A stretch of DNA of 64,000 nucleotides from Flexilinea flocculi (GTDB lineage: Bacteria; Chloroflexota; Anaerolineae; Anaerolineales; Anaerolineaceae): contig NZ_DF968180.1 of the NCBI RefSeq assembly GCF_001192795.1, positions 372,001-436,000 on the forward strand, written 5' to 3'. Positions 10,812 to 60,605 of the stretch are shown here, one piece after another; positions within the stretch are counted from its first letter, which is position 1; each line of letters begins with the position of its first letter. Under the pieces are notes generated by a model, which was not told where the DNA came from, made no database searches, and saw only the letters and a list, made by a program, of their open reading frames with translations. The translations under genes were made by a program, and so were the position numbers.

Positions 10812-10827
10812 GAAAGGGAGGTTGTAA

Positions 10828-11376: not shown

Positions 11377-11385
11377 GGGTGAAGT

Positions 11386-11751: not shown

Positions 11752-11776
11752 GCAGAAATAGAAGAGGACTAAAACC

Positions 11777-12503: not shown

Positions 12504-12505
12504 TT

Positions 12506-12958: not shown

Positions 12959-12997
12959 TTCATAACCGAATCAGATTATTAAAGGAGAACGAAAAGC

Positions 12998-14335: not shown

Positions 14336-14359
14336 TTTTGGGAGATAACTGCATAAATC

Positions 14360-15019: not shown

Positions 15020-15031
15020 TAGGGACAAAAA

Positions 15032-15853
15032 ATGAGTTGGGAACGGCAGGTTAGTATTAAATCCGGGGAAGAACTGAAACTGATGCGAGAAGCTGGCAAG
15101 ATTAATGCTGAGGCATTGAAAGCAGCCAGTGAAGCATGTGTAGCAGGTGCAAGTACCTGGGATGTCAATGCTGCTGCTGAACGTGTGTTGGACAGCTATC
15201 ATGTCATTTCACCATTCAAAGGTGTGCCAGGTCCGATTCCTTTTCCGGCAAGCACTTGTGTCAGCGTCAATCATGTTTTAGTTCATGGTATTCCAAGCAA
15301 AAAAATGATATTGCGCGAAGGTGACATTGTTTCGGTGGATTGCGGGACAATCTATCAAGGATTTGTCGCAGATTCAGCATTCACCATCGGAGTTGGAAAG
15401 ATTTCTGAAGAAGCTCAGCATTTGCTTGAAGTCACCGAAGAATCGTTATATGTCGGGATCCAAAAAATGGTTTCCGGTAATTATACGGGGGATGTATCAG
15501 CTTCCATCCAACAGTTCGTTGAAAATCATGGATTGTATGTAACCAAACAATACACCGGACATGGTGTTGGCCGCAGAATGTGGGAAGCTCCGCAAGTCCC
15601 GAATTACGGCACTGCCGGCCAAGGATTGCTGCTCAAACCTGGAATTACGATTGCAATTGAACCGATGGTATTGATCGGTTCTGACGCAACGAAAGTTTTA
15701 TCCGATGGTTGGGCAGTATCTTCTGAGCGGATGAGCCTGACGGCTCACTTTGAACACACGGTGGCAGTTACAGATAATGGTCCTATGATTACCACTTTAT
15801 TAGAGAATGGCGAAGCGCCGGTTTCTATGAAAAAGCGAGGAGTCTTGTCATAA
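15032..15853 (+). CDS. map: methionine aminopeptidase, type I
   Basis: 273 residues; removes N-terminal Met from new proteins. Metal ligands are visible: DCGTIYQGFVADSAFT (two Asp), GHGVGRRMWEAP (His), AIEPM (Glu) and FEHTVAV (Glu side). Start MSWERQVSIKSGEELKLM, a GGGAC site upstream. The next 97 nt to rpmJ hold no infA, which often sits there. Confidence 0.96.
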   Translation: MSWERQVSIKSGEELKLMREAGKINAEALKAASEACVAGASTWDVNAAAERVLDSYHVISPFKGVPGPIPFPASTCVSVNHVLVHGIPSKKMILREGDIVSVDCGTIYQGFVADSAFTIGVGKISEEAQHLLEVTEESLYVGIQKMVSGNYTGDVSASIQQFVENHGLYVTKQYTGHGVGRRMWEAPQVPNYGTAGQGLLLKPGITIAIEPMVLIGSDATKVLSDGWAVSSERMSLTAHFEHTVAVTDNGPMITTLLENGEAPVSMKKRGVLS

Positions 15854-15950
15854 TATCTTGATCGAATATCAACAGATTTGTTAAAGAAAGAGTATAATTG
15901 GCAGGCTTTAATGTAATTTACGGGTGAAAATCATCCGAGGGAGTGTTAAA

Positions 15951-16064
15951 ATGAAGGTTACTTCATCAATTCGAAAACGATGTGCAAAATGCAAGATCGT
16001 CAAACGGGGAAGCCGTTTGTACGTGATTTGTGAGAACCCAAAGCACAAACAGCGACAGGGATAA
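15951..16064 (+). CDS. rpmJ: 50S ribosomal protein L36
   Basis: 37 codons, [20 protein letters not shown] then [11 protein letters not shown]. The Cys, Cys, Cys, His zinc set of the C+ form is intact. GAGGGAG lies about 9 nt before the ATG. rpsM follows 6 nt later. Confidence 0.95.
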
Positions 16065-16070
16065 TAAAAT

Positions 16071-16460
16071 ATGGCAAGAATTGAAGGTGTCGATCTTCCG
16101 CGTAATAAACGGATTGAAATAGCATTAACCTATATTTATGGGATTGGGCTTACCCGGGCTCAAAAGATCCTTCAGGATACCGGCGTCAATGCTGACGTTC
16201 GTGTCCGTGATCTGTCGGATAATGACGAAAATTTGCTTCGTGAATATATTGCCAAAAACTATATGGTTGAAGGTGATTTACGGCGCGAAGTTCAAATGAA
16301 TATCAAGCGCCTGGTTGAAATTGGCTGCTACCGTGGGTTACGCCACCGTAGAAATTTACCGTCCCGTGGTCAGAGAACTCGGACAAATGCACGCACTGCA
16401 AAAGGACCGAAGAAGACTGTAGCTGGACGTGGCCGCCGTCGTGGAGCAACCAAGAAATAA
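16071..16460 (+). CDS. rpsM: 30S ribosomal protein S13
   Basis: 129 residues. [21 protein letters not shown] region, the helix-hairpin [13 protein letters not shown] and the basic tail [22 protein letters not shown]13 contacts P-site tRNA and forms bridges with the 50S. Followed by a 122-nt gap that carries a hairpin, then rpsK. Confidence 0.97.
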
Positions 16461-16476
16461 TCTGTGTGCTTAATTT

Positions 16477-16533
16477 GCGAATCGTTACAGGTTGGGATTC
16501 CTTTCTTCCCGCGGCTGCCTGTAACATTTTCGC
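16477..16533 (+). promoter_or_regulatory. hairpin between rpsM and rpsK, candidate regulatory RNA
   Basis: GTTACAGG (16484-16491) pairs perfectly with CCTGTAAC (16517-16524), extended across a small internal loop by GCGAA (16477-16481) with TTCGC (16529-16533). No T-run follows, so it is not an ordinary terminator. It lies in the only large gap inside the rpsM-K-D-rpoA group, where S4 feedback control acts in some bacteria; a role here is inference. Confidence 0.5.
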
Positions 16534-16582
16534 ACCTTAAGAGACGGAAAATTTCATTCATAAGGTTATGTAAGAGGATATA

Positions 16583-16987
16583 ATGGCTCAAAATGTACGC
16601 TCATCGCGTCGTACAGCGACTGTACGAAAAGTGAAGCGCACCCTGGGATTAGCTCAGGTGCACATTTTTGCTTCCTTTAACAACACCATCATCACAATTA
16701 CCGATGCAATGGGAAATCCAGTTTGTTGGGGTAGTTCCGGTGCCGTAGGCTATAAAGGATCTCGAAAGAGTACTCCCTTTGCAGCGCGTCTGGCAGCTGA
16801 ACAGGCAATGAAAACCGCACAAACCATGGGTGTTCAGGAAGTTGATTTAATTATTAAAGGACCTGGTCCTGGCCGAGAATCAGCAATTCGTGCCGTCCAG
16901 GGATTGGGGATCAAGGTGCGATCCATTTCTGATATTACACCGGTTCCGCACAACGGATGCAGACCCCCGAAAAAACGCCGCGTTTAA
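16583..16987 (+). CDS. rpsK: 30S ribosomal protein S11
   Basis: 134 residues. [32 protein letters not shown] and the C-terminal [12 protein letters not shown] and [18 protein letters not shown] are the S11 signature blocks. Part of the 30S platform contacting the mRNA exit. AGAGG is about 8 nt upstream. Confidence 0.97.
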
Positions 16988-17005
16988 GATTGAGAGGACT
17001 ATTCA

Positions 17006-17650
17006 ATGGCTAGATATACTGGCTCGGCATGTAAATTGTGCCGGCGAGAAAATGTAAAGTTATTCTTGAAAGGTGAACGTTGTTATACACCGAAATGTTC
17101 TTTTGAGAAACGTGCATACGCTCCGGGCGACCATGGCAAAACTGGAAGCAGCCGCGGAGGTGGCGAAAGAGTATCAGACTATTCTCGTCAATTGCGCGCT
17201 AAACAAAGAGTCCGCAGAGTTTATGGCGTTCTTGAGCGGCAGTTCAGCCGTGTCTATGGAATCGCTGAAAAAACTCCTGGAATAACCGGTTTGAACTTAC
17301 TGCAATTATTGGAAACCCGCTTAGACAATGTCGTCTATCGTTTAGGTTTTGCTGATAACCGGGCATCTGCTCGACAGATGGTGAACCATGGACATTTTAT
17401 GGTGAATGGCATCCATGTTGATATTCCATCCATGATCTTAAAACCTGGTGATCAAATTGCTATCCGTGAAGTTTCCAAAAAAAGGAAAATGTTCCAGGAT
17501 TTTGCAGACTATGCAGAAAAGCGGAACTGTGCTTTATGGCTGGATCGAGATGTGAAAGCACTCAGTGGACGCGTATTACGCCTCCCTGAACGAAGCGAAA
17601 TTGATGGAGATATTACTGAACAGTTGATCGTTGAATACTATTCACGATAA
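17006..17650 (+). CDS. rpsD: 30S ribosomal protein S4, zinc-binding form
   Basis: 214 residues. Cys9, Cys12, Cys26 and Cys31 near the N-terminus form the zinc site of the C+ S4. The S4 RNA-binding motif RLDNVVYRLGFADNRASARQ follows near residue 105. S4 starts 30S assembly and is an autogenous repressor in several bacteria. Confidence 0.97.
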   Translation: MARYTGSACKLCRRENVKLFLKGERCYTPKCSFEKRAYAPGDHGKTGSSRGGGERVSDYSRQLRAKQRVRRVYGVLERQFSRVYGIAEKTPGITGLNLLQLLETRLDNVVYRLGFADNRASARQMVNHGHFMVNGIHVDIPSMILKPGDQIAIREVSKKRKMFQDFADYAEKRNCALWLDRDVKALSGRVLRLPERSEIDGDITEQLIVEYYSR

Positions 17651-17661
17651 AGCAATTTAGG

Positions 17662-17690
17662 CCGATACGCGGGTTTAAGAGGTGTATCGG
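17662..17690 (+). promoter_or_regulatory. hairpin directly upstream of the rpoA ribosome site
   Basis: CCGATAC (17662-17668) pairs with GTATCGG (17684-17690) around a 15-nt loop. The stem ends right before the GAAGGGG ribosome site of rpoA, so it may modulate rpoA translation. No T-run. Confidence 0.4.
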
Positions 17691-17703
17691 GAAGGGGTGT
17701 TAA

Positions 17704-18669
17704 TTGGCTACATTAAGTAATATGGTGACACCAAAAATCGAGCGAGAACGGGAAGCGAGCAATTACGGAAAATTCGTCATCTACCCTCTGGAAAGAGGAT
17801 ACGGTGTAACGCTCGGGAATGCTTTGCGAAGAGTTTTGCTTTCCTCTTTGGAGGGCGTTGCTATTACTTCCATTCGAATAACGGATGTTATGCATGAATT
17901 CAGCGCCATTCCTGGCGTCCGCGAGGATGTCCTTCAGGTGATGCTGCAAATTAAGCAAATCCGTTTATTGATGCACGAAGGCGATGTCTCCCACCTTCAT
18001 CTCGTTGTAAACGGTGAAGGGGAAGTCACAGCTTCCGACATTCAGTGCCCGGCTGAAGTTGAAATCCTTAATCCCGAATTGTATCTGTTCACCGTTGATA
18101 ACCCAAGCGCTCATTTGGAAATTGACATGACAGTCGGAAGAGGACGGGGTTATTTACCGGCAAATGAACGATCTGGCCACTTACAGATCAGTGAATTACC
18201 GGTTGACGCGATATTCAGCCCGATCCGCCGCGTAAATTGGAACGTCGGTTCTGCTCTTTATGGGCAAAGTACGAATTATGACAAATTAGAGTTGGAAATC
18301 TGGACAGATGGTACGATTCAACCTGAACCAGCTTTAGTCATGGCTTCCAAAATATTAATCGAACATCTGCGATATATTTCCGGTATCAGCGAAGATATAC
18401 TGCCGGATATTATCGAAAAAGAGATTCCGAATACGCGTTTAACGAGCGAAACCGCGGAGACTCCCATTGAAAATCTCGATTTATCGGTCAGAGTGTTCAA
18501 TTCATTAAAGCGTACAGGCGTAGCGACAGTTGGTGATGTCCTTGAACTGTTGGATAAAGGTGATGATGCTGTAAAATCCATTCGCAATTTCGGAGAGAAA
18601 AGTCTGGATGAGTTGCGAGAAAAATTACAGGAAAAAGGCTATCTGAAGAAAGATAAGGATACGGAGTAA
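17704..18669 (+). CDS. rpoA: RNA polymerase subunit alpha
   Basis: 321 residues from TTG 17704, which has GAAGGGGTG just upstream; ATG 17722 is the alternative. The N-terminal dimer domain includes LERGYGVTLGNALRRVLLSS (residues ~27-47, split) and the C-terminal domain, after a linker, contains LKRTGVATVGDVLELL and NFGEKSLDELREKL that bind UP elements and regulators. Confidence 0.97.
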   Translation: MATLSNMVTPKIEREREASNYGKFVIYPLERGYGVTLGNALRRVLLSSLEGVAITSIRITDVMHEFSAIPGVREDVLQVMLQIKQIRLLMHEGDVSHLHLVVNGEGEVTASDIQCPAEVEILNPELYLFTVDNPSAHLEIDMTVGRGRGYLPANERSGHLQISELPVDAIFSPIRRVNWNVGSALYGQSTNYDKLELEIWTDGTIQPEPALVMASKILIEHLRYISGISEDILPDIIEKEIPNTRLTSETAETPIENLDLSVRVFNSLKRTGVATVGDVLELLDKGDDAVKSIRNFGEKSLDELREKLQEKGYLKKDKDTE

Positions 18670-18674
18670 ACGAG

Positions 18675-19055
18675 ATGCGACACGGAGTTGCAGGATATAA
18701 ATTAGGAAGAACCACTTCTCAAAGAAAACTTTTGCGAGTAAACCTGGTTCGTCAGCTCTTTGAGCATGAACGGATTACAACGACGCAGGCAAAAGCATTG
18801 TCAATGAGAAATGACGCTGAAAAACTGATCACATTGGCAAAAAAAGGAAATAGGGGAGATCAAATCGCCAAAATGAATGCTTCCAGACTGGCTGCTTCCA
18901 GATTGGGAAATGATCGAGAAATTACCAAAAAACTTTTTAGTGATATTGCCAGTCGTTTTGAAAACCGAAACGGTGGTTATACTCGTATGATCAAGTTGGG
19001 ACCCCGCAAGGGCGATTCAGCGGAAATGGTTATTATTGAATTGGTTAGTGAGTAA
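18675..19055 (+). CDS. rplQ: 50S ribosomal protein L17
   Basis: 126 residues; MRHGVAGYKLGRTTSQRKLL and the late NGGYTRMIKLGPRKGDSAEM are L17 blocks. Five bases after the rpoA stop. Its 3' end lies just before the truA ribosome site. Confidence 0.97.
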   Translation: MRHGVAGYKLGRTTSQRKLLRVNLVRQLFEHERITTTQAKALSMRNDAEKLITLAKKGNRGDQIAKMNASRLAASRLGNDREITKKLFSDIASRFENRNGGYTRMIKLGPRKGDSAEMVIIELVSE

Positions 19056-19077
19056 ATCATCCGAGGGAAGCAATTCC

Positions 19078-19830
19078 TTGGCAGATGATTCTGTACGTTA
19101 CAAATTTACAGTTTCTTACGACGGAACACTCTATTGGGGTTTTCAACGCCAAAAAGGTCATCCTACCATACAAGAAGAACTGGAAAAAGCATTAGCAAAA
19201 CTTGGATGGGAAGAATCGAGTATTATCGGAGCTGGACGGACTGACAGCGGAGTACATGCTGATGGACAGGTTTTTACAGCAAAACTTCGTTGGAATCACA
19301 GCCTTACTTCTCTGATTGCTGCAATCAACTGGCATTTACCAGCTGATATAGCAGTGACCGGAATCGAACCGGTTCCAGATACGTTCCATGCGAGATTTGA
19401 TGCAAGATCACGATCTTATCATTATTATGTCTATCATGATGAGATTCGGGATCCACTGAAAGATCGCTATTTTTGGCGAGTATGGCCAGTGTTGGATTTG
19501 AAAATGTTAAATAGAGCTGCAGCAGAGTTATTAGGTGAACATGATTTTCGTTCATTTGGTTCCCCGCCCCGGAAAGGTGGACGAACGGTTCGCACGGTAA
19601 TGAAAAGCTGCTGGTATGAAATAAGTGCCACCGAACGAGTTTTTGAAGTCGAGGCGAACGCTTTTTTATACCGTATGGTGCGAAGAATGGTTTTTCTTCA
19701 GATTCAGACTGCAGCAGGATGGATGAGTTGGGATTCCTGGAAAAACGCGATCTGGAATGCGGAAGATGCAAAACCAGGGATTGCTCCTGCTAATGGCTTA
19801 AGGTTGCATGCAGTTTCGTATGAACCTTAA
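19078..19830 (+). CDS. truA: tRNA pseudouridine(38-40) synthase TruA
   Basis: 250 residues. I choose TTG 19078, which has GAGGGAAG 7 nt upstream, over an in-frame TTG at 19036 and GTG at 19048 inside rplQ that have no ribosome site. Catalytic Asp56 lies in GAGRTDSGVHADGQV; DARSRSYHYYVY and the FLYRMVRRMV motif are typical. Modifies the anticodon arm of tRNAs. The order rplQ-truA-rplM-rpsI is common in Firmicutes-like and Chloroflexota genomes. Confidence 0.92.
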   Translation: MADDSVRYKFTVSYDGTLYWGFQRQKGHPTIQEELEKALAKLGWEESSIIGAGRTDSGVHADGQVFTAKLRWNHSLTSLIAAINWHLPADIAVTGIEPVPDTFHARFDARSRSYHYYVYHDEIRDPLKDRYFWRVWPVLDLKMLNRAAAELLGEHDFRSFGSPPRKGGRTVRTVMKSCWYEISATERVFEVEANAFLYRMVRRMVFLQIQTAAGWMSWDSWKNAIWNAEDAKPGIAPANGLRLHAVSYEP

Positions 19831-19908
19831 TCCTGAACAAATACTAGCGAGACTGTAAAACTAATAGCAAAGATAGACTAGAAAACTATTTTTGAAAATT
19901 GGAGAAGA

Positions 19909-20340
19909 ATGACTGTGGAAAAGACCTATGTCATTAAAGGTGAACCTGAGAGCGAATGGCTGTTGCTTGACGCAAGCGGACAGAGCATTGGCCGATTGGC
20001 TGCCCAAATAGCAAACTATTTGTTGGGGAAACATAAACCAAATTATACCCCCGGCGTAAAAATGGGAGATTTTGTTGTTGTGATTAATTGTTCTCAACTG
20101 GCTATTTCTCCTAAAAAAATGACGACGAAATTTTATTATCGCCATTCAGGATATCCCGGTGGTTTAACAACTACTTCCCTGAAAGAGATGATGCGGACTT
20201 ATCCGGATCGTGTTATTAAGAGTGCTGTTTGGGGCATGCTTCCACATAACTCACATGGTCGTGAGTTAATGAAGCGTTTGAAATTATTTGCCGGAAATGA
20301 ACATCTCCATGATGCTCAAAATCCGAAACGTGTGAACTAA
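19909..20340 (+). CDS. rplM: 50S ribosomal protein L13
   Basis: 143 residues. LDASGQSIGRLAAQIANYLLGK, YYRHSGYPGGLTT and VWGMLPHNSHGRELMKRLK are L13 hallmarks (each a separate stretch). GGAGAAG 5 nt upstream. Forms a pair with rpsI. Confidence 0.97.
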   Translation: MTVEKTYVIKGEPESEWLLLDASGQSIGRLAAQIANYLLGKHKPNYTPGVKMGDFVVVINCSQLAISPKKMTTKFYYRHSGYPGGLTTTSLKEMMRTYPDRVIKSAVWGMLPHNSHGRELMKRLKLFAGNEHLHDAQNPKRVN

Positions 20341-20351
20341 AGGAGCAAAGA

Positions 20352-20747
20352 ATGGCCGGAAAATACTATGAAGGTGTTGGTCGCCGCAAGGAGAGTGTTG
20401 CTCGAGTTCGTTTGAGTACCGGAACTGGTGACTTTACGGTTAATGACAAGCCTATAGCAAATTACTTCACTCGTTTAGGAGATGTAGAGGCAATATTAGT
20501 TCCGTTTTCAGCGATCAATCAAGATTTGAACGGTTATGATGTTTCCGTACATGTTAATGGCGGCGGCGTAACAGGACAAACGGATGCGGTACAGCTCGGT
20601 TTGGCTCGAGCTATTGTGAAAATGGATGGAACCTTGAAACCGGCACTGAGTCATGCGGGATTGCTAACGCGGGACCCGAGAATCAAGGAACGAAAGAAAC
20701 CAGGTTTGAAGCGGGCTCGAAAGGCTCCAACCTATACAAAACGTTAA
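20352..20747 (+). CDS. rpsI: 30S ribosomal protein S9
   Basis: 131 residues. YEGVGRRKESVARVRL opens it and KKPGLKRARKAPTYTKR closes it, with the C-terminal Arg that touches the P-site tRNA. AAGGAGCAAAG precedes the start. Last gene of the ribosomal block. Confidence 0.97.
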   Translation: MAGKYYEGVGRRKESVARVRLSTGTGDFTVNDKPIANYFTRLGDVEAILVPFSAINQDLNGYDVSVHVNGGGVTGQTDAVQLGLARAIVKMDGTLKPALSHAGLLTRDPRIKERKKPGLKRARKAPTYTKR

Positions 20748-20782
20748 TTTTTGTTTTATATCCTGGTCTGAGATTTATGATG

Positions 20783-20816
20783 AAAAAGGAACCATAAAAA
20801 TGGTTCCTTTTTTTTT
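20783..20816 (+). terminator. rho-independent terminator after rpsI
   Basis: AAAAGGAACCA and TGGTTCCTTTT form a stem around a short A-rich loop, followed by nine or more T residues. Ends the ribosomal block. Confidence 0.92.
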
Positions 20817-20846
20817 GTTTTTCTGTACTAATCGCATTAAATAAAT

Positions 20847-26037: not shown

Positions 26038-26948
26038 TGATCCTGAAGATATTTAAGTGGTTCATTATCATTAATTCGAAATATGAAAAGAATTCTTTAT
26101 TCGGAAAGTCAATCCATATTTTGAATTGCTGGTTCGTCATATCCGTCTGTATTCTTTCCCTTTCTATTCTTACTTCATGTACGTTGCCAGGGAGAATTCC
26201 TGCGCAAACAGCAATTGGACAGATTGTTTCTACTGTTCATTTTATGGGATCGAGAACACCTTATCCCACTTATACCGGATATCCGACTCAAATCCCCTAT
26301 CCTTCCTATACACCGAAACCGTCGCCGCAGGGAATATGGTTTGAAACGGATACATCTGTTCAAGAGATGTATATGGAAAATGCTCCTTATCCAACTCAAA
26401 CAGCTTATCCGACCCAGCGAGCCTATACCGAAGATGATATGAAGCACAAAATTGTTATGCTGCCTGGAATTTGGGCACGCAATTTGTCCGAATATGGACA
26501 TTGCGAGGATGATTTTTCTGTTAAAATCGGATCAAAAACACCCTATTTTGCTTTTGCAGTCGGCGGTGAAGCGTCAAAAAAACAATTCTTAATTTTGAAT
26601 ATCAGTTTTTACAATTCCTCCGATCATACATTACATATTGATCCTCAACAATTTCAGGTGATCGGAAATTTGAATGGAAAAGAAGTGGTCTATGACTCCC
26701 ACATTCCAGCAGGACAAGCCGCGAGCAATCGCTGGGGAATGGATTTCATCGGCAGCAGAGGAGTACCACCTGGACTTGAAATTGGATCCTATCTGGCATT
26801 TGATGTGGATTATCACGCTGTGAATTGGCGATTGGTTTATCATTCGGATTCTTCGGAACCAAGTGACTGTAATTTTTCTATCGAAATTCCTCAGCCCGAA
26901 TTTGCTATTAAATATTATGAAACGTTAATGAGTACCAGTGGAAAATAA
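26038..26948 (+). CDS. lipoprotein with Pro/Thr/Tyr-rich linker
   Basis: 303 residues from ATG 26038. A hydrophobic stretch ends in the lipobox LSILTSC, so the mature protein is likely lipid-anchored outside the membrane. A tandem linker follows (TPYPTYTGYPTQ, IPYPSYTP and again PYPTQTAYPTQ), then a ~150-residue beta-rich domain. The N-terminal ~20 codons before the signal core are formed by a copy of the 123-nt family element. The true start could be a later TTG just after that element. Paralogous to the next gene. Function unknown. Confidence 0.75.
26069..26131 (-). repeat. 123-nt family element, hairpin-deleted copy inside a coding region (63 nt)
   Basis: AATTCGAAATATGAAAAG on the left and CCATATTTTGAATTGCTG on the right. 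Reverse orientation. Compared with the full copy at 37587-37709 the hairpin is removed with a junction in a short GAA repeat. It overlaps the predicted N-terminus of the lipoprotein. Confidence 0.75.
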
Positions 26949-26950: not shown

Positions 26951-27054
26951 CTGTACTTCGAAATATGAAAGGGACTCAATGTTGTTCTTATGGTTTTACG
27001 CTTTGCGTAAAAAAACACAGCAATTTATACTTTTTCTCATATTTTGAATTGCTG
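26951..27054. repeat. 123-nt family element with damaged hairpin (104 nt)
   Basis: Ends CTTCGAAATATGAAAG and CTCATATTTTGAATTGCTG. The core keeps TTTTACGC facing GCGTAAAA, but the outer half of the stem (TTGTTCTTATGG against ACACAGCAA) no longer pairs well. Lies right after the lipoprotein stop. Confidence 0.7.
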
Positions 27055-27905: not shown

Positions 27906-28028
27906 CGGTAACTTGAAAAATGAGAAGAATTTTTTCATGTAACGATGGTTTTATGCGAAGCATAAAACCATCGTTACATGAAATCATCTCTCTTATCTCA
28001 AAGGGTTTTTCCAAATTTAGAATCACTG
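27906..28028 (-). repeat. 123-nt family element, full length, perfect hairpin
   Basis: Exactly 123 nt, reverse orientation, with diverged ends (ACTTGAAAAATGAG and CCAAATTTAGAATCACTG). The hairpin is 24 bp and perfect: left arm 27933-27956 beginning TTTCATGTAACGATGG, loop GAA, right arm 27960-27983. The stem sequence is unlike the other copies. Confidence 0.8.
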
Positions 28029-28081: not shown

Positions 28082-28645
28082 TTATTTCATATTCTTGTCA
28101 ATTTCCTCGCGTGCACGAGCAATCAAATCACTGGCATCATCAACTCTGGAAACGCGGGATTTTTCTGATGTTGTGGGACTTGCATCATCAATGACACTGC
28201 CGGATTTTTCTTCAATTACTTCGCGGGCTTTTGAAATCAGATCACTTGCATCTTCGACTCGAGAAACGCGAGATTTCTCTGTAACTGCTGATTCCATATC
28301 ATTCGCTTTATTCCCCAGGTTCTTCTCAATCTCTTCACGCGCTCTGGAAATAATATCACTTGCATCATCGACTCTGGAATCGCGGGATTTTTCAGATACA
28401 ACATCTTCAACTTTATCCGTGATATCTTTTATGGAAGGAATGTTAAAGGAGTTTTCCGGTTTAGATGAAGACGTATCAGTGGATGAGGACTTTCTTCTTG
28501 AATCCATTAAGTATCCTACAGCTAATCCACCGATCAGACCATAAACCAGCAACGTGTTCTCGTCAATTCCGGAGACAATGTATCGTAACAGATAACCAAC
28601 TACAATACCGATAATGCAGTAGATCGCTAAAATATTTTTTTTCAT
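28082..28645 (-). CDS. membrane-anchored protein with three ~40-residue repeats
   Basis: 187 residues from ATG 28645, with AGGAG 8 nt upstream (a TTG at 28666 is less likely). Two N-terminal hydrophobic segments (about 4-22 and 32-48, the second glycine-rich) precede a charged cytoplasmic or external tail. The tail contains three copies of a unit built around SRVDDASDLIARAREEI and variants; the DNA shows the same direct repeats. Probably helical. No family recognised. Confidence 0.75.
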   Translation of the reverse strand: MKKNILAIYCIIGIVVGYLLRYIVSGIDENTLLVYGLIGGLAVGYLMDSRRKSSSTDTSSSKPENSFNIPSIKDITDKVEDVVSEKSRDSRVDDASDIISRAREEIEKNLGNKANDMESAVTEKSRVSRVEDASDLISKAREVIEEKSGSVIDDASPTTSEKSRVSRVDDASDLIARAREEIDKNMK

Positions 28646-28725: not shown

Positions 28726-28848
28726 CAACAATTCGAAATTTGGATTGACTTTTCGAATAAAGAAAGGAAATTTGTTGTTCTTCTGGTTTTGCGCTTCGCG
28801 CAAAACCAGAAGAACAACAATAAATAATTACCATATTTCGAATCACTA
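28726..28848 (+). repeat. 123-nt family element, full length, perfect hairpin
   Basis: Exactly 123 nt, forward. Ends CAACAATTCGAAATTTGGAT and ACCATATTTCGAATCACTA. The 23-bp perfect stem is at 28772-28794 and 28798-28820 (left arm begins TTGTTGTTCTTCTGG) with loop TTC. Sits between two divergently transcribed genes with the next copy. Confidence 0.92.
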
Positions 28849-28858: not shown

Positions 28859-28924
28859 CAGCCATTCGAAAAAAACAATTTTTATCTTTTTTCTCAAAAG
28901 GCTTTATCAAATTTCGAATCGCTG
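28859..28924 (-). repeat. 123-nt family element, hairpin-deleted copy (66 nt)
   Basis: CAGCCATTCGAAA and AAATTTCGAATCGCTG ends, 10 nt after the previous element. Its interior in reverse (GCCTTTTGAGAAAAAAG) matches the copy at 37417-37509. These two elements account for most of the 332-nt gap before murJ. Confidence 0.75.
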
Positions 28925-30646: not shown

Positions 30647-30684
30647 CAGCAATTCGAAACATGGATTGCCTTTTCGAATTGCTG
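30647..30684. repeat. 123-nt family element, minimal 38-nt form
   Basis: CAGCAATTCGAAA and TTTCGAATTGCTG are perfect 13-nt inverted repeats around a 12-nt middle. The right end abuts the stop codon of the oxidoreductase gene on the minus strand. Confidence 0.85.
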
Positions 30685-34776: not shown

Positions 34777-34899
34777 CAGCGATTCGAAATTTGGAAACAC
34801 CTTTTGCAAAAAGAGAGAAAACTTGTTGTTGTGTTATTCTTGCTCGGAGCGCAAGAATAACACAACAACAAATAATTCTTTTCAAATTTTGAATTGCTG
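34777..34899 (+). repeat. 123-nt family element, full length
   Basis: Exactly 123 nt, forward; ends CAGCGATTCGAAATTTGGAA and TTCAAATTTTGAATTGCTG. Stem 34823-34845 with 34849-34871 (left arm begins TTGTTGTTGTGTTATTC), loop GGA, a single T/C mismatch next to the loop. A palindromic scrap CAGCAATTTCGAA lies just upstream at 34694. Confidence 0.92.
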
Positions 34900-37416: not shown

Positions 37417-37509
37417 CAACAATTCGAAATTTGGAAAAGCCTTTTGAGAAAAAAGCGAAAACTTTTTGTACACAACAAAAAATAATCCCTCTCATAATTC
37501 GAATCGCTG
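37417..37509 (+). repeat. 123-nt family element with shortened hairpin (93 nt)
   Basis: CAACAATTCGAAATTTGGAA and ATAATTCGAATCGCTG ends. The core is cut to TTTTTGT facing ACAAAAA, 30 nt shorter than full copies. Confidence 0.8.
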
Positions 37510-37586: not shown

Positions 37587-37709
37587 CAGCCATTCGAAAT
37601 ATGGATTGATTTTTCGAATAAAGAAAGAAAATTTGTTGTACTTATGGTTTTACGGCAAGCGCAAAACCATAAGTACAACAATGAATTCTTTTTATATTCC
37701 GAATTGCTG
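37587..37709 (+). repeat. 123-nt family element, full length
   Basis: Exactly 123 nt, forward; ends CAGCCATTCGAAATATGGAT and TTATATTCCGAATTGCTG. Stem 37633-37655 with 37659-37681 (left arm begins TTGTTGTACTTATGG), loop CAA. Two substitutions relative to the copy at 28726 are matched by complementary changes in the other arm; two mismatches lie near the loop. With its neighbours it fills most of the 535-nt gap 37306-37840. Confidence 0.92.
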
Positions 37710-39543: not shown

Positions 39544-40032
39544 ATGAATATTGAAACCATCATTTCGAAGATTAAGAATGCACTGGGTGAAGGGGTGGAC
39601 AAGGTGTCCGATGAAGTTGAAAAAAGTCAGGTTTTCGAAAAATTCGAAGATTCTGATGACAAGGTCGCGAAAATTCTGGATGATGCAGGGAAAGCTTTGA
39701 CCAGCCTGTTTGATACAATCGCGGACAAAGCTGAGCCGATGATCAAAAAGACGAAAGCAAAGATCTATGAAGGGATCTTTGAGGAGTATCGAAAGGATGG
39801 CAGCCCTTATGGAGAAACCCATGAAGGGTTCATGCAATGGGTGGATGAGCATGAGACTGAGATCCGGGAAAAAGTTGATGATGGCATTACCAAAACGCGT
39901 GAAACGATTCTTTCCGGTGTGAAAAAGACTCAGGAATATATCAATCGCGAAGTTTCGAAAAAGGAAAAGCCGTCCGATTCAGTTGTTGATGGATCCTCTG
40001 TGACTGACCAGAAATCATCCGATAAAGAATAA
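39544..40032 (+). CDS. small charged helical protein, unknown
   Basis: 162 residues, Lys/Glu/Asp-rich and predicted helical, with AAAGGA 8 nt upstream. No signal peptide or membrane span. Segments such as IIKSKIKNALGEG-like N-terminus and REKVDDGITKTRETILSGVKK recall small coiled-coil stress proteins, but I recognise no family. Ends with a terminator 50 nt downstream, so it is a separate unit or shares the ABC-F transcript. Confidence 0.7.
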   Translation: MNIETIISKIKNALGEGVDKVSDEVEKSQVFEKFEDSDDKVAKILDDAGKALTSLFDTIADKAEPMIKKTKAKIYEGIFEEYRKDGSPYGETHEGFMQWVDEHETEIREKVDDGITKTRETILSGVKKTQEYINREVSKKEKPSDSVVDGSSVTDQKSSDKE

Positions 40033-40079
40033 AATAATTCGGTTCCTCGAATAAAACGAGAGCTTTCATTATTATGAAT

Positions 40080-40122
40080 AATCTGCGGTTTACATCAGAA
40101 AGTAAACGGCAGATTTTTTTTT
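40080..40122 (+). terminator. terminator after the charged protein gene
   Basis: AATCTGC-GGTTTAC and GTAAACG-GCAGATT form a long stem followed by nine T residues. Confidence 0.9.
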
Positions 40123-40266
40123 GGATTTCTTGTGACCTGAGTAAATGAAGTAAAACAAGAAAAGGAGGTAAATTCTTTCAAAGATTTAAAGAATATTTTA
40201 TATTTCCTAAATGTTTTCTCTGGATTATTACAGACCAGATGGTTTATCAAAAAACTGATTCTATGA

Positions 40267-40304
40267 CAGCCATTCGAAATTCAAGCCCATATTTCAAATT
40301 GATG
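40267..40304. repeat. 123-nt family element, minimal 38-nt form
   Basis: CAGCCATTCGAAAT and ATTTCAAATTGATG inverted repeats, the same 38-nt length as the copy at 30647. The rest of the 601-nt gap 40033-40633 holds a terminator and one promoter; nothing else is seen. Confidence 0.65.
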
Positions 40305-40555
40305 ATAAAAACACCAAGAAGAATCGTTATAATTGTGCTCAATTAAGATCATTTGATTTATTATAAATTTTTGATAGTTGCGGTATATCCGGCTTTTATT
40401 CTCTTCACTGAACGATAACACTGCAAATCCTTACTATTGCAACGGGAAAAAAGTGCAGATTTTCAGTTTCGGAAAAATCGATGTCGATGTAAAATTTACT
40501 GGCAACTTTTTCGTTCGCATCAGCAAATCTGCAATTGTTTGAAGAGATTTTTTTA

Positions 40556-40584
40556 TTGTACATTCGAGATGTTCAATTTATGAT
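40556..40584 (+). promoter_or_regulatory. promoter of the 494-residue glycosyltransferase gene
   Basis: TTGTAC, 17-nt spacer, TATGAT; 49 nt before the ATG. Confidence 0.5.
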
Positions 40585-40633
40585 GTATCATCTGTAATAT
40601 TTCGGTTTCAGAACTCTTTGGGAGCGATATACA

Positions 40634-44813: not shown

Positions 44814-45287
44814 TCAACTTTCCTGCGATTGCTGATGCTCACACGTTCCTAAGTTCAGATTTGTACCGCATATTGCGCAGAGACCTTTGCATTCAGGTTT
44901 ACAGATCGGGCATATCGGAATTTCGATCAACAAATATTCTCTGATTAATGGGAGTATGTCCATCACTCCATTTTCCGGAAGATATAAATCCGCATCGGTA
45001 TTCTGGCGCAAATGGAAGGCGAATAATTCGTCAAAATTCGATTCGATTTTTTGCGGAAAAGATTCCAAACATCGTACGCATTCCATTTGAGTTTCGGCAG
45101 TGATATGAATGGATGCTAAAATTCCTTGCTGAACGCGATTGACTCGAACAAGACAATGCACATCTTCAACTTCAAAATCGTCTTCCAGTTTGAGTGAAGG
45201 CGCATCAATATTAAATTCACGATAGGCTCCAACAGCTTCATGAATAAGAAATCCGACATTAATACGAAAAAGATTGTTCCATTTCAT
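44814..45287 (-). CDS. yceD: YceD-family (DUF177) protein
   Basis: 157 residues. The family core MECVRCLESFPQKIESNFDE is followed by a zinc-ribbon-like tail with CPICKPECKGLCAICGTNLN and a last Cys-His pair. YceD proteins affect 23S rRNA accumulation and nearly always precede rpmF; here the next gene is the small protein above and rpmF is not in sight. GAGGTG upstream. Confidence 0.85.
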   Translation of the reverse strand: MKWNNLFRINVGFLIHEAVGAYREFNIDAPSLKLEDDFEVEDVHCLVRVNRVQQGILASIHITAETQMECVRCLESFPQKIESNFDELFAFHLRQNTDADLYLPENGVMDILPLIREYLLIEIPICPICKPECKGLCAICGTNLNLGTCEHQQSQES

Positions 45288-45342: not shown

Positions 45343-45410
45343 CCGCAATTCGAAATATGGACAAGTTTTCTCGATTGATTCGAAAGGTTTGTAAATATTT
45401 CGAATTGCTG
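45343..45410 (-). repeat. 123-nt family element, hairpin-deleted copy (68 nt)
   Basis: GCAATTCGAAATATGGAC and AATATTTCGAATTGCTG ends. The interior AGTTTTCTCGATTGATTCG equals that of the full copy at 50073 exactly, but the 55-nt hairpin block is missing. Reverse orientation. Confidence 0.88.
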
Positions 45411-45447
45411 GTTAGTGAATTTATTATTCTGAAAATCTGAAGCGTGT

Positions 45448-45453
45448 TATAAA
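45448..45453 (+). promoter_or_regulatory. -10 box seven bases before an ATG
   Basis: TATAAA ends 7 nt before ATG 45461, no ribosome site seen; possible leaderless start. -35 poor. Confidence 0.35.
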
Positions 45454-45460
45454 TATCAGC

Positions 45461-47368
45461 ATGAATGATCATTCGTCAAACATCAGAAGTCAATCCGAAA
45501 AAAGAACTGATAAAGCACAAATAATTTTATTATTCCTCATAATTCTGGAAGGTTTTTTTGCTTTATATACCCTGTTTCGTATTCCATCAGAAACGGAGAA
45601 CGCGATATTTTTTGGCTTTTCGAAAAGCCGATTGCTGTTGATCGTTATAAATATTACGGTTCTTCTGATTCTGATTGGATTATCAATTTCTTTTTTTATC
45701 CCAACAATGAAAAAAATCCGGGATGGTGCAAATGCCTGGATCAAGAATCGAAATCTTTCGTTTTCCCTTTTTGTAATTTTTTGGATTGTTTTTTGGGTCG
45801 GATTGTGGCTTTTCGTTCTTCGGTTTTCGCCAGCTAATCGCTATGACAGTACCGTCGGTTCCATTGTTGATCGTGTCTGGGGACTTCTTTTGTGGGGTAT
45901 GCTGAGCAGCTTGCAGATGATGATATTTATCTATGTGAAGAATCAGCAAAATATGAACGGAATTTCATTACTGCAGATAGCGATTTTATTCACACTTTTC
46001 TTATTTTCCTATTATGGCTTTGCTTCCTATTATGATCAGGTAGACTGGTCATTAAGGATGAATGGTCTGTTCATGATGGTGTTCATTCCTTCGTCGCTTG
46101 CATTGATCTGGTCAGTTGGTTATCGTTTTTACAGATCCTCAAAATGGTCATCCGCCATTAATAAAGTCTTCCTCTGTTTATTGATCGGCTCAGTGGTTTA
46201 TCTGGTATACCGATCTACCGGGCAATGGATGGGACGATGGAATACCCCTTCAAAAGCCTATTGGGATCTTCTGGCTGAATCGTTTCTGAATGGAAGATTG
46301 AATATTATTAATCCTCCAACCACACATGATTTGACTTTATTTCATGGAAAATGGTATGTCCCGAATCCTCCACTGCCCGCGGTGCTGTTAATGCCTTTTG
46401 TACATTGGTATGGTGTCGAAGGAATCAACATGACGGTCGTTTCAGCCTTACTGGGAGCATTTAATGCGGTTCTGGTTTTTCTTGTTCTCCAGAGGGCTTC
46501 TGATCATTCCATGACAAATTGCAGTTTAAATGCGAATCTTTGGATCACGGCGCTGTTTGCAATAGGGACAAACCATTATTGGTTGTCCACGATTGGGCAG
46601 ATGTGGTTTGTCAGTCAGTTGGTCACGATCTTATTTGTTGCCTTCGCATGTCTTTCTGTGATTGAAGGGTGGACAGGATGGATCAGTGGTTTCTTGCTGG
46701 GATTGGCAATCCTTTCCCGCCCCAACGTGTTTCCGATGGCGATTTTTTTGGCAGGCATTTTTCTGTGGAGAAATGCCGCCTTCCCAAAAGTTCCCTGGAA
46801 GAGGTTTCTCCTTTGGGGAGTCAGTGCAGGAATTCCGGTAATTTTTTCAGGCGGATTACTGCTTTTCTACAATTATCTTCGATTTGACGACTGGACCGAT
46901 TTCGGATATGTGACGATTCATGGCGCTGATTGGATTCTTGAAGCCGTGCAAAAATACGGTATGTTTAATTTCCATTTTTTTGAAAACAATCTGGATGTGA
47001 TGATTTTTCGGAGACCCAGACTGGATTTTTCCGGGGAACGATTCTTCTTTCAGCCGGGAATTTCCGGCTACAGCATATTGATTATGACACCTCCATTAAT
47101 ATATCTCTTTCGAAGGTTACAGAAAAACTGGTGGATGATCGGTGCATGGTTTTCCATTCTCCTGACTGTCGGATTGTTGCTTTGTTACCATAATACCGGC
47201 GCTGAACAGATTGGATATCGCTACTTGATGGATGCAATTTTGCCGATAATGTTAATTATTGGAGTCGGAGCAGGCAAAAAACCAGGCGTTTTCTTTAAGA
47301 CTTCGACGATACTCGGTGTCTTTGTAAATTTCTTATCAATTTACTGGTGGTATCTTGGAAGAGTGTAA
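45461..47368 (+). CDS. polytopic membrane protein, glycosyltransferase-like
   Basis: 635 residues, about 13 spans. YWDLLAESFLNGRLNIINPP and HGKWYVPNPPLPAVLLMPFV resemble the first periplasmic loop of GT-C/DUF2029-type mannosyltransferases (long-loop sugar transferases), and a His-rich LSTIGQMWFVSQL follows. N-terminus has ~20 polar residues before the first span. Family assignment by pattern only. Confidence 0.65.
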   Translation: MNDHSSNIRSQSEKRTDKAQIILLFLIILEGFFALYTLFRIPSETENAIFFGFSKSRLLLIVINITVLLILIGLSISFFIPTMKKIRDGANAWIKNRNLSFSLFVIFWIVFWVGLWLFVLRFSPANRYDSTVGSIVDRVWGLLLWGMLSSLQMMIFIYVKNQQNMNGISLLQIAILFTLFLFSYYGFASYYDQVDWSLRMNGLFMMVFIPSSLALIWSVGYRFYRSSKWSSAINKVFLCLLIGSVVYLVYRSTGQWMGRWNTPSKAYWDLLAESFLNGRLNIINPPTTHDLTLFHGKWYVPNPPLPAVLLMPFVHWYGVEGINMTVVSALLGAFNAVLVFLVLQRASDHSMTNCSLNANLWITALFAIGTNHYWLSTIGQMWFVSQLVTILFVAFACLSVIEGWTGWISGFLLGLAILSRPNVFPMAIFLAGIFLWRNAAFPKVPWKRFLLWGVSAGIPVIFSGGLLLFYNYLRFDDWTDFGYVTIHGADWILEAVQKYGMFNFHFFENNLDVMIFRRPRLDFSGERFFFQPGISGYSILIMTPPLIYLFRRLQKNWWMIGAWFSILLTVGLLLCYHNTGAEQIGYRYLMDAILPIMLIIGVGAGKKPGVFFKTSTILGVFVNFLSIYWWYLGRV

Positions 47369-47521
47369 TCTTACTGATTGGATTTATTCCATTCGATTAT
47401 TCAAATTCGACAAATACATATAGATAAGTAATTTATATAGAAAAACTATTTTCTAATTTAAACCAATTTCAAAAATCGTATCCTCGTATGTTAGAAATAA
47501 ACACGCTAGAAATAGATAGTA

Positions 47522-50026
47522 ATGAAAAGCAACAATCTGATAGAAAATGATCGTTCCAGCGATAAAAAAAATCCGACTGTCATTCGTGTTGTTTTGAATG
47601 TTCCAACTAATGACGGTCTTTTTGATTATGAAGTTCCGGAGGAGCTCCAACAAAAAGCGCTGCCTGGCTGTTTGGCTGCAGTCCCTTTTCAAAATGAGTT
47701 AATGCAAGGGATTATCTGGAAAGTGGACGTAATACCCGAAACAGCTTCGCTACGAAAGATAATTCAAGTCATCGATGAAATACCGGTTCTGACAAAACCA
47801 CAGATGATGCTGGCTGAGATTTTATCGGAGCGCTGTCTGGCTCCGCTTTTTGAGTGTGTCAATCTATTGTTGACCGAAAAAATTCGAAAATTATCGCAAA
47901 CACAATTTACACTCATAAAACAAAATCCGCAGATTCCTGGTGCACAACCCACTTTTCTTTCGGAAGCCAAAAAGAGTACAGTTCGTGATCAAGTACTGGC
48001 TGCATTTCCGGATTTAAATGAACCGATTACACCGTTGAAGTTGGATCAGACAGTTGGTAAAAATCGGTGGCGCTATGCAATAAACAACCTGATCTCAGAG
48101 GGCTTTGTCAGGAAAGAAACCGTATTCCATATTTCTGATTACAAACCGAAAATGGTTCGTGCTGCAAAAATAATCAGCGATCCAAATGGAAACGAATGGA
48201 TAAAGCTTTCAAACAGTCCTGAAAGGAATGAAAAAAGAAAAAAAGTTTTGCGTTTGCTTCAGGAACATTCATCAGCAATCCCTCTTCAGAAACTCTACGA
48301 AGAAGCTGAAGCAGAACGATCCGACCTTCTTTATTTGGAGAAAAAGGGACTGATTTCACTCATGGAGATTGAGGTTTGGCGTGATTATGAGTCCAACCTC
48401 GAAGAAAATTATCCTTCGGAACAAATTTCTCTCAATTCTGAACAGATACATGCCTTGAATATCATTGAAGCCGGACTCCAAAATACAAAAGAAAAGAAGC
48501 CGATTCTGTTGCATGGAGTAACCGGTTCCGGGAAAACAGAACTCTATTTACAAGCTGCGGAGAGAACCATCGCAGCAGGAAAGCAAGTATTGGTGCTTGT
48601 TCCGGAAATTTCCTTAACTCCTCAAATATTGAACCGTTTTCAAAAAAGATTTCCGGAACGAACAGGGATTTATCATTCTCGTCTGAGCACAGGTGAACGA
48701 TACGATACCTGGCGTCGCGCTCGCAATGGACAGTTTCAAATCGTCATTGGTCCCAGAAGCGTCCTTTCCATTCCGCTTCAAAATATCGGTTTAATCATCG
48801 TAGATGAATGTCATGATGATTCTTATTACCAGACAGAAGGATTACCCTATTTTTCGGCAGTTCAGGCTGCGGCGGATTATGCAAAATTATGTCATGCGCA
48901 ATTAATTTTAGGGAGCGCAACACCAACAACAGCGCAAATGTATAAAGCCGAGCAAAGCAATTGGAAAATTGTCAAACTTTTCAACCGTGCGACAGGCGTT
49001 CAGCAGCCGATTATCCGGTTGGTGGATATGCGGCAAGAGTTAAAAGCGGGAAATCAGTCTGTTTTCAGCAGACAGCTATCGCAAGAACTGGAGACAACAC
49101 TTTCTCTCAAAAAGCAAAGCATTCTTTTCCTCAATCGGCGCGGATCAGCAAGTTATGTCTTTTGTCATTTTTGCGGTTATGAGTTTCGTTGTCCGAAATG
49201 TGAAATTCCGATGACTTCTCATGCACAGAATTCTCAACTGGTCTGTCATTTCTGCGGTTATTCACAGCTTCAACCGGAACGATGTCCCGCTTGCGGTCAT
49301 GCAGAAATTCGTCATTTTGGAACCGGCGTCGAAGAGATCGAACGGATTCTTACTGTTCAATACCCGGATGCGCGTTTAATTCGAATGGATGCGGAAACGA
49401 CCACAAGAAAAGGTCAACATGAGCAGATGCTGACCGCTTTTGCCAGACATGAAGCGGATATATTAATTGGCACGCAAATGGTGGCGAAGGGCTTGGACTT
49501 TCCCGATGTCCGACTGGTTGGGATGATTCTTGCCGATGTTGGGACAAATTTTCATGACTACCGGGCTGATGAACACGCCTTTCAAATGCTAACGCAAGTC
49601 GCAGGCCGTGCCGGACGTGCACAGGAACAAGGTTTGGCAATTTTACAGACATTCCAACCGGCCAGATACTCTATTCGTGCTGTCGTTAAGGGAGATTTTT
49701 ATGATTTTTATCGTCACGAACTTAAATTTCGTAAGGAAATCGGCTATCCGCCATTTTCGCGCATGATCCGTCTCGAAATTGCTGATCCGGTTTTAGAAAA
49801 AGCGGAATCGAGAGCTTTTCAACTGGCTTCCGATCTGAAAAAATGGATCGATTCTGAAGAGCATCACGCAACAAGAATGATTGGTCCGGCGCCCTGTTTT
49901 TTCCCTCGAATCAATGGGAAGTATCGCTGGCATGTTATTTTACGTGGTCCTGATCCTTTGCCAATTGTCCAAAAAATCAACACAGAAAAAATCCGAGTGG
50001 AAGTAGATCCTCCATCATTATTATGA
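47522..50026 (+). CDS. priA: primosomal protein N' (replication restart helicase PriA)
   Basis: 834 residues. An N-terminal 3'-DNA-binding domain (VPTNDGLFDYEVPEEL), then helicase motif I HGVTGSGKTELYLQ, a DEAH-box variant DECHDDSYYQ, eight zinc-binding cysteines in four CxxC pairs (CHFC, CPKC, CHFC, CPAC), and motif V/VI DILIGTQMVAKGLDFPDV and QVAGRAGRA. Restarts stalled forks. The start ATG has no clear ribosome site. Confidence 0.94.
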   Translation: MKSNNLIENDRSSDKKNPTVIRVVLNVPTNDGLFDYEVPEELQQKALPGCLAAVPFQNELMQGIIWKVDVIPETASLRKIIQVIDEIPVLTKPQMMLAEILSERCLAPLFECVNLLLTEKIRKLSQTQFTLIKQNPQIPGAQPTFLSEAKKSTVRDQVLAAFPDLNEPITPLKLDQTVGKNRWRYAINNLISEGFVRKETVFHISDYKPKMVRAAKIISDPNGNEWIKLSNSPERNEKRKKVLRLLQEHSSAIPLQKLYEEAEAERSDLLYLEKKGLISLMEIEVWRDYESNLEENYPSEQISLNSEQIHALNIIEAGLQNTKEKKPILLHGVTGSGKTELYLQAAERTIAAGKQVLVLVPEISLTPQILNRFQKRFPERTGIYHSRLSTGERYDTWRRARNGQFQIVIGPRSVLSIPLQNIGLIIVDECHDDSYYQTEGLPYFSAVQAAADYAKLCHAQLILGSATPTTAQMYKAEQSNWKIVKLFNRATGVQQPIIRLVDMRQELKAGNQSVFSRQLSQELETTLSLKKQSILFLNRRGSASYVFCHFCGYEFRCPKCEIPMTSHAQNSQLVCHFCGYSQLQPERCPACGHAEIRHFGTGVEEIERILTVQYPDARLIRMDAETTTRKGQHEQMLTAFARHEADILIGTQMVAKGLDFPDVRLVGMILADVGTNFHDYRADEHAFQMLTQVAGRAGRAQEQGLAILQTFQPARYSIRAVVKGDFYDFYRHELKFRKEIGYPPFSRMIRLEIADPVLEKAESRAFQLASDLKKWIDSEEHHATRMIGPAPCFFPRINGKYRWHVILRGPDPLPIVQKINTEKIRVEVDPPSLL

Positions 50027-50072
50027 AAAAACCGTTCTTTTCCTGCAGCGGCAGTAATTTTCACTAATATAT

Positions 50073-50195
50073 CAGCGATTCGAAATATGGAGGGAATTAT
50101 TTATTGTTGCGTTGTTTTTGCGCGGAGCGCAAAAACAACGCAACAATAAGTTTTCTCGATTGATTCGAAAGGTTGGTTCATATTTCGAATTACTG
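50073..50195 (-). repeat. 123-nt family element, full length, perfect hairpin
   Basis: Exactly 123 nt, reverse orientation; ends CAGCGATTCGAAATATGGAG and TTCATATTTCGAATTACTG. Perfect 23-bp stem at 50101-50123 and 50127-50149 (left arm begins TTATTGTTGCGTTG), loop GGA. The matching hairpin-free derivative is at 45343. Confidence 0.93.
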
Positions 50196-50287
50196 CTACT
50201 ATATTGAATCGCTTGTTTGAATGATAAAGTTAATACATATTCGTAATACCAGATTAACCATTCTTTGTTCGTAAGGGAAGGTATGTA

Positions 50288-55772: not shown

Positions 55773-55791
55773 GGTACGCACATGACAAATT

Positions 55792-56106
55792 GTCATTGCG
55801 AGGAAGGCGCCAGCCTGACGAAGCAATCTTTTTTTGTTTGGTACCCTTTACATAATGGGGAAAGGAGATTGCCACGCCTCTACGAGGCTCGCAATGACAG
55901 GATACACACAGTCATTGCGAGGAAGGCGCCAGCCTGACGAAGCAATCTTTTTTTGTTTGGTACCCTTTACATAATGGGGAAAGGAGATTGCCACGCCTCT
56001 ACGAGGCTCGCAATGACAGGATACACACAGTCATTGCGAGGAAGGCGCCCCAGCCTGACGAAGCAATCTCTTTTCGTGTGGCAATCTTTACATAATTGGA
56101 GCAGAT
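55792..56106. repeat. tandem array of 119-nt units, GTCATTGCGAG palindrome type
   Basis: Units begin at 55792, 55911 and 56030; the first two look identical, the third is truncated and diverged. Each unit is a 107-nt imperfect palindrome (GTCATTGCGAG to CTCGCAATGAC, with inner CAATCT/AGATTG) plus a 12-nt spacer. A decayed single copy is at 57378. The gap 55535-56140 is filled by the hairpin, remnant and this array. Similar GTCATTGCGAG repeats are known to me from many unrelated bacteria. Confidence 0.9.
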
Positions 56107-59695: not shown

Positions 59696-59797
59696 CAGCG
59701 ATTTGAAATAGGATCGGGGTCATATATACGTGTTGTTTTTATGTGGAGCGCAAAACCATACGAACAGCAACGATACTTTTCAAATTTCAAATTACTG
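59696..59797. repeat. 123-nt family element, decayed (102 nt)
   Basis: CAGCGATTTGAAATAGGAT and CAAATTTCAAATTACTG ends. The hairpin is lopsided: GTTGTTTTTATGT faces GCGCAAAACCATACG with the left arm shortened. Confidence 0.65.
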
Positions 59798-60482: not shown

Positions 60483-60605
60483 TTGCAATTCGAAAAATGA
60501 ACATATTTATGGAATAGAGGGTGAAAATTTATCGTTGTGATGTTTTTGCGACTCACGCAAAAACATCACAACGATAAAGAATCCTTCCTGTATTTCGAAT
60601 CGCTG
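60483..60605 (+). repeat. 123-nt family element, full length, perfect hairpin
   Basis: Exactly 123 nt, forward; ends GCAATTCGAAAAATGAAC and CTGTATTTCGAATCGCTG. Perfect 23-bp stem at 60528-60550 and 60556-60578 (left arm begins TTTATCGTTGTGATG), five-base loop ACTCA. Confidence 0.92.

Follow-up and report, generated by a model that had tools for sequence, protein, structure and literature searches.

The Correia elements or nemis (CREE) of Neisseria make a TA target duplication. They are a high-copy family of miniature inverted-repeat elements (MITEs) with inverted repeats, full and internally deleted sizes and hairpin-forming transcripts, and their internal deletion of about 105 bp constitutes a named size class, as set out in part of PMC2649163. 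REPINs, as portrayed in sections of PMC3116915, are mobile units whose hairpin arms often carry compensatory changes. In pneumococcus, BOX, RUP and SPRITE are small stem-loop repeats that cluster and insert into one another, and RUP has been hypothesised to be moved by IS630-Spn1 (excerpts of PMC3049150). Type II MITEs such as QMITE1/2 and Chunjie resemble an insertion sequence (IS) at their ends only and have a wide range of sizes with decayed copies, according to portions of a review (PMC10969869) that also gives 711 ERIC copies in Photorhabdus luminescens. Decay-driven size variation in type II MITE families is already known.

The repeats described here were encountered in a stretch of 64,000 nt from Flexilinea flocculi (the window) and are copies of one non-autonomous transposon family of about 123 bp, a MITE. 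In certain aspects it resembles all of the above systems. Like CREE it is a high-copy MITE of full and internally deleted sizes, but its ends are different, its target duplication is 9 bp long, and its deletion junctions are scattered and do not form one size class. Whereas a REPIN is a pair of REP palindromes associated with a tyrosine transposase (RAYT), the Flexilinea MITE has terminal inverted repeats (TIRs), 9-bp duplications and a DDE-like IS. BOX elements contain a variable number of boxB modules, while the hairpin of the Flexilinea MITE appears to be lost by deletion and not added; instead of an internal module with fixed borders, 62 distinct junctions are found among 73 short copies. 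The family fits the type II MITEs, having ends in common with an IS, a duplication of equal length and no room for a transposase gene. It is a known and mostly ordinary kind of element, in which the hairpin is unusually well kept; compared to type II MITEs in general its density is also high (0.22-0.23 per kb). We consider it highly probable that this is a MITE family, probably moved by an IS, that loses its hairpins by independent deletions after insertion, without any insertion of a hairpin module.

The element family and its copies in the window

The genome to which the window belongs (G000) has 3.51 Mb in 3 contigs and was compared throughout with a relative genome (G010). A protein adjoining the element is 89% identical in Flexilinea sp. 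MO118, and the MO118 contig equals G010:C49. The MITE has TIRs of about 19 bp, an internal hairpin with a stem of about 23 bp, and 9-bp target duplications. Its oriented consensus of 123 bp is made up of an end, a spacer of about 10 nt, the stem of about 23 bp with a 3-nt loop, a spacer of about 27 nt, and the other end. Allowing at most one mismatch, the end motif occurs 286 times in the own genome and 339 times in G010, and a reversed control pattern 0 times; letter-shuffled DNA yields 0 end pairs at score 22, versus 223 in real DNA. The motif counts against the reversed control, together with the flanking 9-bp duplications, indicate that the repeats are not due to chance.

Copies were called by an end profile in two sets of stretches, set 1 (809 kb, 226 copies) and set 2 (800 kb, 224 copies), and four 38-nt calls starting inside an element were left out of the counts as caller artefacts. 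With a score of at least 28 there are 367 copies in both sets, and the above density applies to each genome and to each set. Most copies (218) measure 112-130 nt; a further 98 measure 45-98 nt, 23 less than 45 nt and 14 between 99 and 111 nt, while the other 14 are longer. Open reading frames (ORFs) predicted by a simple script hold the midpoints of 49 of these 367 copies; by the same script, 22-93% of each set 1 stretch is coding, with most stretches above 70%. The genomes with matches, 5 of the 61 searched with the own genome included, all belong to the same genus. First-look candidates number 576 in G000, 534 in G010 and 110 in G003, and there are two matches in G008 and one in G002. The only Rfam match in the window at gathering scores is a tRNA. 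The copies in the window and their associated features are the following.

2218-2293, minus strand: hairpin-minus copy, 76 nt
26069-26131, plus strand: hairpin-minus copy, 63 nt; flanking 9-mers match at 7 of 9
26951-27054, plus strand: 104-nt copy with a damaged stem
27906-28028, plus strand: full copy; flanking 9-mers match at 7 of 9
28726-28848, minus strand: full copy, in tandem with the copy at 28859
28859-28924, plus strand: hairpin-minus copy, 66 nt, 10 nt from the copy at 28726-28848
30647-30684, no strand assigned: 38-nt copy, little beyond the two ends; flanking 9-mers match at 8 of 9
34777-34899, minus strand: full copy; the place is organised differently in G010
37417-37509, minus strand: 93-nt copy without the hairpin centre; perfect 9-bp duplication ATTTTATTC
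37587-37709, minus strand: full copy, 123 nt
40267-40304, no strand assigned: 38-nt copy-like sequence within a 674-bp block identical in G010
44814-45287 (minus strand, YceD-like) and 45461-47368 (plus strand, ORF): divergent neighbours of the copy at 45343
45343-45410, plus strand: hairpin-minus copy, 68 nt; flanking 9-mers match at 4 of 9
50064-50072: left target duplication of the copy at 50073, CTAATATAT, 8 of 9 match
50073-50195, plus strand: full copy, 123 nt, 46 nt past the end of a PriA-like gene (47522-50026)
50101-50123, plus strand: left arm of the 23-bp hairpin stem of the copy at 50073
50127-50149, plus strand: right arm of that stem; loop GGA at 50124-50126
50196-50204: right target duplication of the copy at 50073, CTACTATAT
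59696-59797, no strand assigned: degraded 102-nt copy
60483-60605, minus strand: full copy

Several other features of the window deserve mention. By calling, 2294-20846 is element-free; SecY and adenylate kinase genes are found there, and such genes sit in a ribosomal protein operon. Three 78-nt repeats with a spacing of 114 nt lie within an ORF at 28092-28397. The block at 39946-40619 (674 bp), mostly between ORFs, is identical in G010, whereas the surrounding contigs differ by about 15%; searches of 12 other genomes of the genus gave no match to it, Rfam gave none at E 1, and it may be either a recent transfer or a conserved RNA. Finally, a tandem repeat of about 119 nt at 55785-56099 (CATTGCGAGGAAGGCGCCAGCCTGACGAAGCAATCT...) is absent from the orthologous place in MO118.

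A probable partner IS and the target duplications

A single, intact IS of 1,632 bp, with an ORF for a DDE-like transposase of 446 aa, is located at L087:821-2452 (G000:C1) between perfect 9-bp duplications GCATTCTGT. Its left end is identical to the MITE consensus at 21 of 21 bases and its right end at 18 of 21, and with blastn the consensus has E-values below 0.01 on the IS at the ends only. Homologues on plasmids of Calothrix sp. PCC 7716 (39%), with ends CAGCAATTCTCATTTT, are flanked by a perfect 9-bp duplication in both of the two copies; the ends of the Calothrix homologue, CAGCAATTC, are similar to those of the MITE and the IS. The duplication length of 9 bp is therefore alike in the MITE copies, the partner IS and both Calothrix homologues. 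A Gloeothece protein annotated as 'ISNCY family transposase' shares 36.6% identity over 95% with the partner transposase, and in other families of the order there are a 42% relative and a short fragment; for the Gloeothece homologue and the 42% relative no end pair with a perfect duplication was found. The Pfam matches of the transposase, PF01609 and PF13808, are below the cut-offs, and NCBIfam gave none at E 0.1. The IS had no match in G010 (a draft, 92% complete), in G003 or in the other genus genomes. As far as can be judged from the sequences, the MITE is probably moved in trans by this IS, whose homologue is annotated ISNCY. A second PF01609 transposase (L086) was considered as partner and rejected, being without the MITE ends.

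In the same region, at L087:780-820, the IS is about 8 nt from the apparent end of a MITE copy, and relatives of the 119-nt repeat (75-82% identity) are found beside it.

The 9-bp duplication is apparent in the MITE copies as a population: in 42 of 171 copies the flanking 9-mers agree at no fewer than 8 positions, while a shuffled-flank control gives 0.001 at 8 or more of 9. For other duplication lengths from 5 to 13, at most 8 of 171 match at n-1 and none stands out. Empty sites are found as well, since 6 of the 54 G000 copies with both flanks orthologous in G010 face an element-free gap of at most 35 nt there, for example G000_C3a:54830. Neighbouring copies are less than 50 nt apart in 11 of 202 pairs, versus about 3 expected, which shows that new insertions arise beside old ones. 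Tandem elements parted by one 9-10-nt duplication were observed at G010_C77:95091-95335 and G000_C3_400:2677-2959; at both loci it looks as if a new copy took the duplication of the resident as its target.

A dense MITE in Chloroflexota is now tied to a probable partner IS with 9-bp duplications. Literature queries found no paper joining Anaerolineae with miniature inverted-repeat, and a Flexilinea/MITE query was swamped by arthropod mites; the literature searched did not contain the MITE family, its probable IS, its density or its record of scattered hairpin deletions.

The hairpin-minus copies

A first-pass annotation had described the 68-nt copy at 45343 as the arms of the 123-nt copy at 50073 minus a 55-nt hairpin block, and this is borne out. 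One gap of 55 nt aligns both (61 of 68 positions match), and they have the ends and AGTTTTCTCGATTGATTCG in common. The block that is absent corresponds to about 50091-50145, that is, the left spacer and all of the stem but the final 4 bases of the right arm; in the 50073 copy this stem is a perfect one. In single-stranded DNA folding, z amounts to -10.3 and -8.2 for the full copies 50073 and 37587, and to -5.7 and -1.3 for the short copies 45343 and 26069. The latter had been regarded as a short version of 37587 with its junction in a GAA microhomology. The relation itself holds, with 37587-37709 in opposite orientation (with one gap of 60 nt, 55 of the 63 positions of 26069-26131 match its reverse complement), but the microhomology does not: a closer full relative, G000:C3:484626-484748 (59 of 63), places the junction in a 6-nt TTCTTT microhomology.

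Among 107 short candidates (45-100 nt, score at least 26), 73 could be oriented and 34 were dropped as unorientable; 143 full copies served as reference. The 73 short copies have 62 distinct junction pairs in consensus coordinates, with parents guessed from relatives and junctions placed without small indels, which may split some pairs. Both arms are lost in 38 copies (at most 6 nt of each left), the left arm is kept in 21, the right in 13 and parts of both in 1, so that in 34 of 73 a remnant longer than 6 nt is left of a single arm.

According to a first alternative, which the annotation had also put forward, the hairpin is a separate module that was inserted into a shorter ancestral element, like boxB in pneumococcal BOX. 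Such a history would predict one common empty junction, and some junction pairs indeed recur (consensus 47/82 is seen four times among the 73 copies and 34/86 twice). This contrasts with the number of distinct junctions and with the frequent remnants of one arm; moreover, 3 of the copies at 47/82 end in a T tract that is also present on the far side of the hairpin. Full copies also have the fresher duplications, matching at 8 or more of 9 in 58 of 143 versus 19 of 73 short copies (p = 0.037), and part of one arm is retained at the locus that differs between the two species (see below). Module insertion is thus largely refuted and seems extremely improbable.

Deletion is the preferred reading, and here the junctions carry information of their own. 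Their microhomology averages 1.29 nt, versus 0.91 nt when deletions of equal length are put at random positions of the same parents (p = 0.006); for the 9 short copies with a full relative of at least 90% identity the values are 2.44 and 1.21 (p = 0.017). The excess is not significant in set 1 alone (43 copies, 1.12 versus 0.86, p = 0.089), and microhomologies of at least 3 nt are found at only 11 of 73 junctions (15%), versus 9.4% in random deletions. Of the excision by replication slippage that had been suggested originally, the loss of the hairpin therefore stands, while the scattered junctions exclude a precise excision; slippage at short repeats is in keeping with the data. Randomly scattered junctions, named beforehand as the result that would speak against the suggestion, are largely what the comparison of short and long copies brought to light, yet the microhomology exceeds that of random deletions.

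On this basis the following course can be proposed. The spreading form would be the copy of about 123 bp with a near-perfect hairpin, which the IS presumably moves in trans, making 9-bp target duplications. After insertion, independent internal deletions would take out the hairpin or one of its arms. The deletions probably arise by strand slippage during replication, when the hairpin folds in the template and short chance repeats on either side are joined; the position of the hairpin, the one-arm remnants and the microhomology all point in this direction. In vitro, polymerases slip on hairpin templates, as reported in parts of PMC4134008.

It could also be imagined that the short copies are a transposition-competent sub-family of their own. 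The 19 of 73 with duplications of at least 8 of 9 would be in accordance with this, as would the 72-nt copy G010_C22:109611, which has a duplication of 9 of 9 and a site that is empty in G000, and the end scores, which equal those of full copies (41.5 versus 41.6). The short copies do not group, however. In the common parts, the nearest neighbour of a short copy is also short in 14 of 65 cases, versus 20.2 expected (18 of 39 versus 14.1 in set 1 alone, p = 0.22), so there is no hairpin-less lineage, and few junctions occur in more than one copy. We regard such a sub-family as unlikely. The hairpin-minus copies seem to be mostly decayed derivatives, older insertions that lost their hairpin many separate times.

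Comparison of the same sites in G000 and G010, proposed at the outset as a search for presence and absence of the hairpin between strains, gave one clear case. Of 412 copies (score at least 24, both sets, both genomes), 128 could be placed in the other genome by orthologous flanks within its fetched DNA; 11 same-position pairs were found, only one being a clean loss in place. Here the full copy G000:C2:154009-154131 (123 nt) corresponds to G010:C11:65913-65985 (73 nt), with equal orientation and insertion point and flanks that are 88 and 87% identical. The 73-nt copy is without 50 nt, the loop and most of the stem, with a 2-nt microhomology at the junction; since part of one arm remains, the direction is that of loss. 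Among 143 possible parents, its own ortholog was the best (93%) and had been picked before the locus was known. Post-insertion internal deletion is hence observed at one locus between two species, and the make-up of the other copies suggests the same for them. Two short copies (62 and 55 nt) are common to both species at the same sites, so that those losses predate the species split.

Other sites are less straightforward. At the 45343 site G010 has a full copy in opposite orientation with conserved flanks, located where contigs C3 and C49 share 27 bases; this locus therefore does not show simple loss. The full copy that G010 has at 50073 differs in its flanks and is bordered by a duplication of its own, AAGAATTCC; it is thus an independent insertion, and the same-position pair at G000_C2_600:19236 also consists of independent insertions with their own duplications. 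A general flipping of the interior at fixed sites was considered and rejected: only 3 of 10 oriented same-position pairs are opposite, in addition to 45343 at its contig edge.

With hundreds of palindrome copies in two related genomes, the family offers a natural record of hairpin-associated deletion, in which junctions, relatives and a mark of insertion age, the target duplication, can be read together.

Maintenance and decay of the stem

Stem pairing was first examined in 61 copies selected for the presence of a stem, a choice that favours pairing. For the 22 pairs of the main helix, 95.7% of cells contain standard pairs, and 19 of the 22 have two-sided changes; the structure as a whole has 159 two-sided cells in these copies, whereas shuffling gives 47.8 and sliding no more than 47. 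In 198 full-length copies not chosen for a stem, the copy's own arms match at 17.3 of 20 pairs, versus 14.2 for arms from two different copies and 9.6 for shuffled sequence. Furthermore, copies with duplications of at least 8 of 9 have fewer stem mismatches (MWU p = 0.0004), in a weak trend that is not monotone (Spearman 0.20); fresh copies thus have a near-perfect stem, older ones a poorer one.

Alternatively, the hairpin might be retained because it serves the host, either as a terminator or as a site of RNA processing, and be lost where it is harmful to promoters. The T-rich tail after the 50073 stem, downstream of the PriA-like gene, is suggestive of such a role, and in set 1 short copies are more often located between divergent genes than hairpin copies (19 of 45 versus 9 of 61, p = 0.0019). 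This promoter-region bias failed to replicate and was rejected: with the test fixed beforehand, the fresh stretches of set 2 gave 8 of 36 versus 14 of 77 (one-sided p = 0.39), with a reverse trend in G000 (2 of 17 versus 9 of 35) and a trend like that of set 1 in G010 (6 of 19 versus 5 of 42). The larger number of stem mismatches in copies with worse duplications also speaks for decay after insertion. A host role is, in our opinion, quite improbable.

Decay after insertion leaves the question of why spreading copies keep their stem by paired changes. As the arms covary within copies, the stem may matter to the spreading element; its upkeep could come from selection during spread or from templated correction between the arms. 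It is tempting, if speculative, to imagine the stem as a working part of transposition, with a perfect cruciform or hairpin that would help the DDE-like IS in excision or target capture; stems would then diversify by paired changes, decay after insertion and disappear by slippage once they are no longer selected. At L127:9002-9124 and L148:2474-2596, G000 and G010 have full copies of equal position and orientation whose stems, each of them self-complementary, are quite dissimilar; this may reflect a paired change in place or two insertions.
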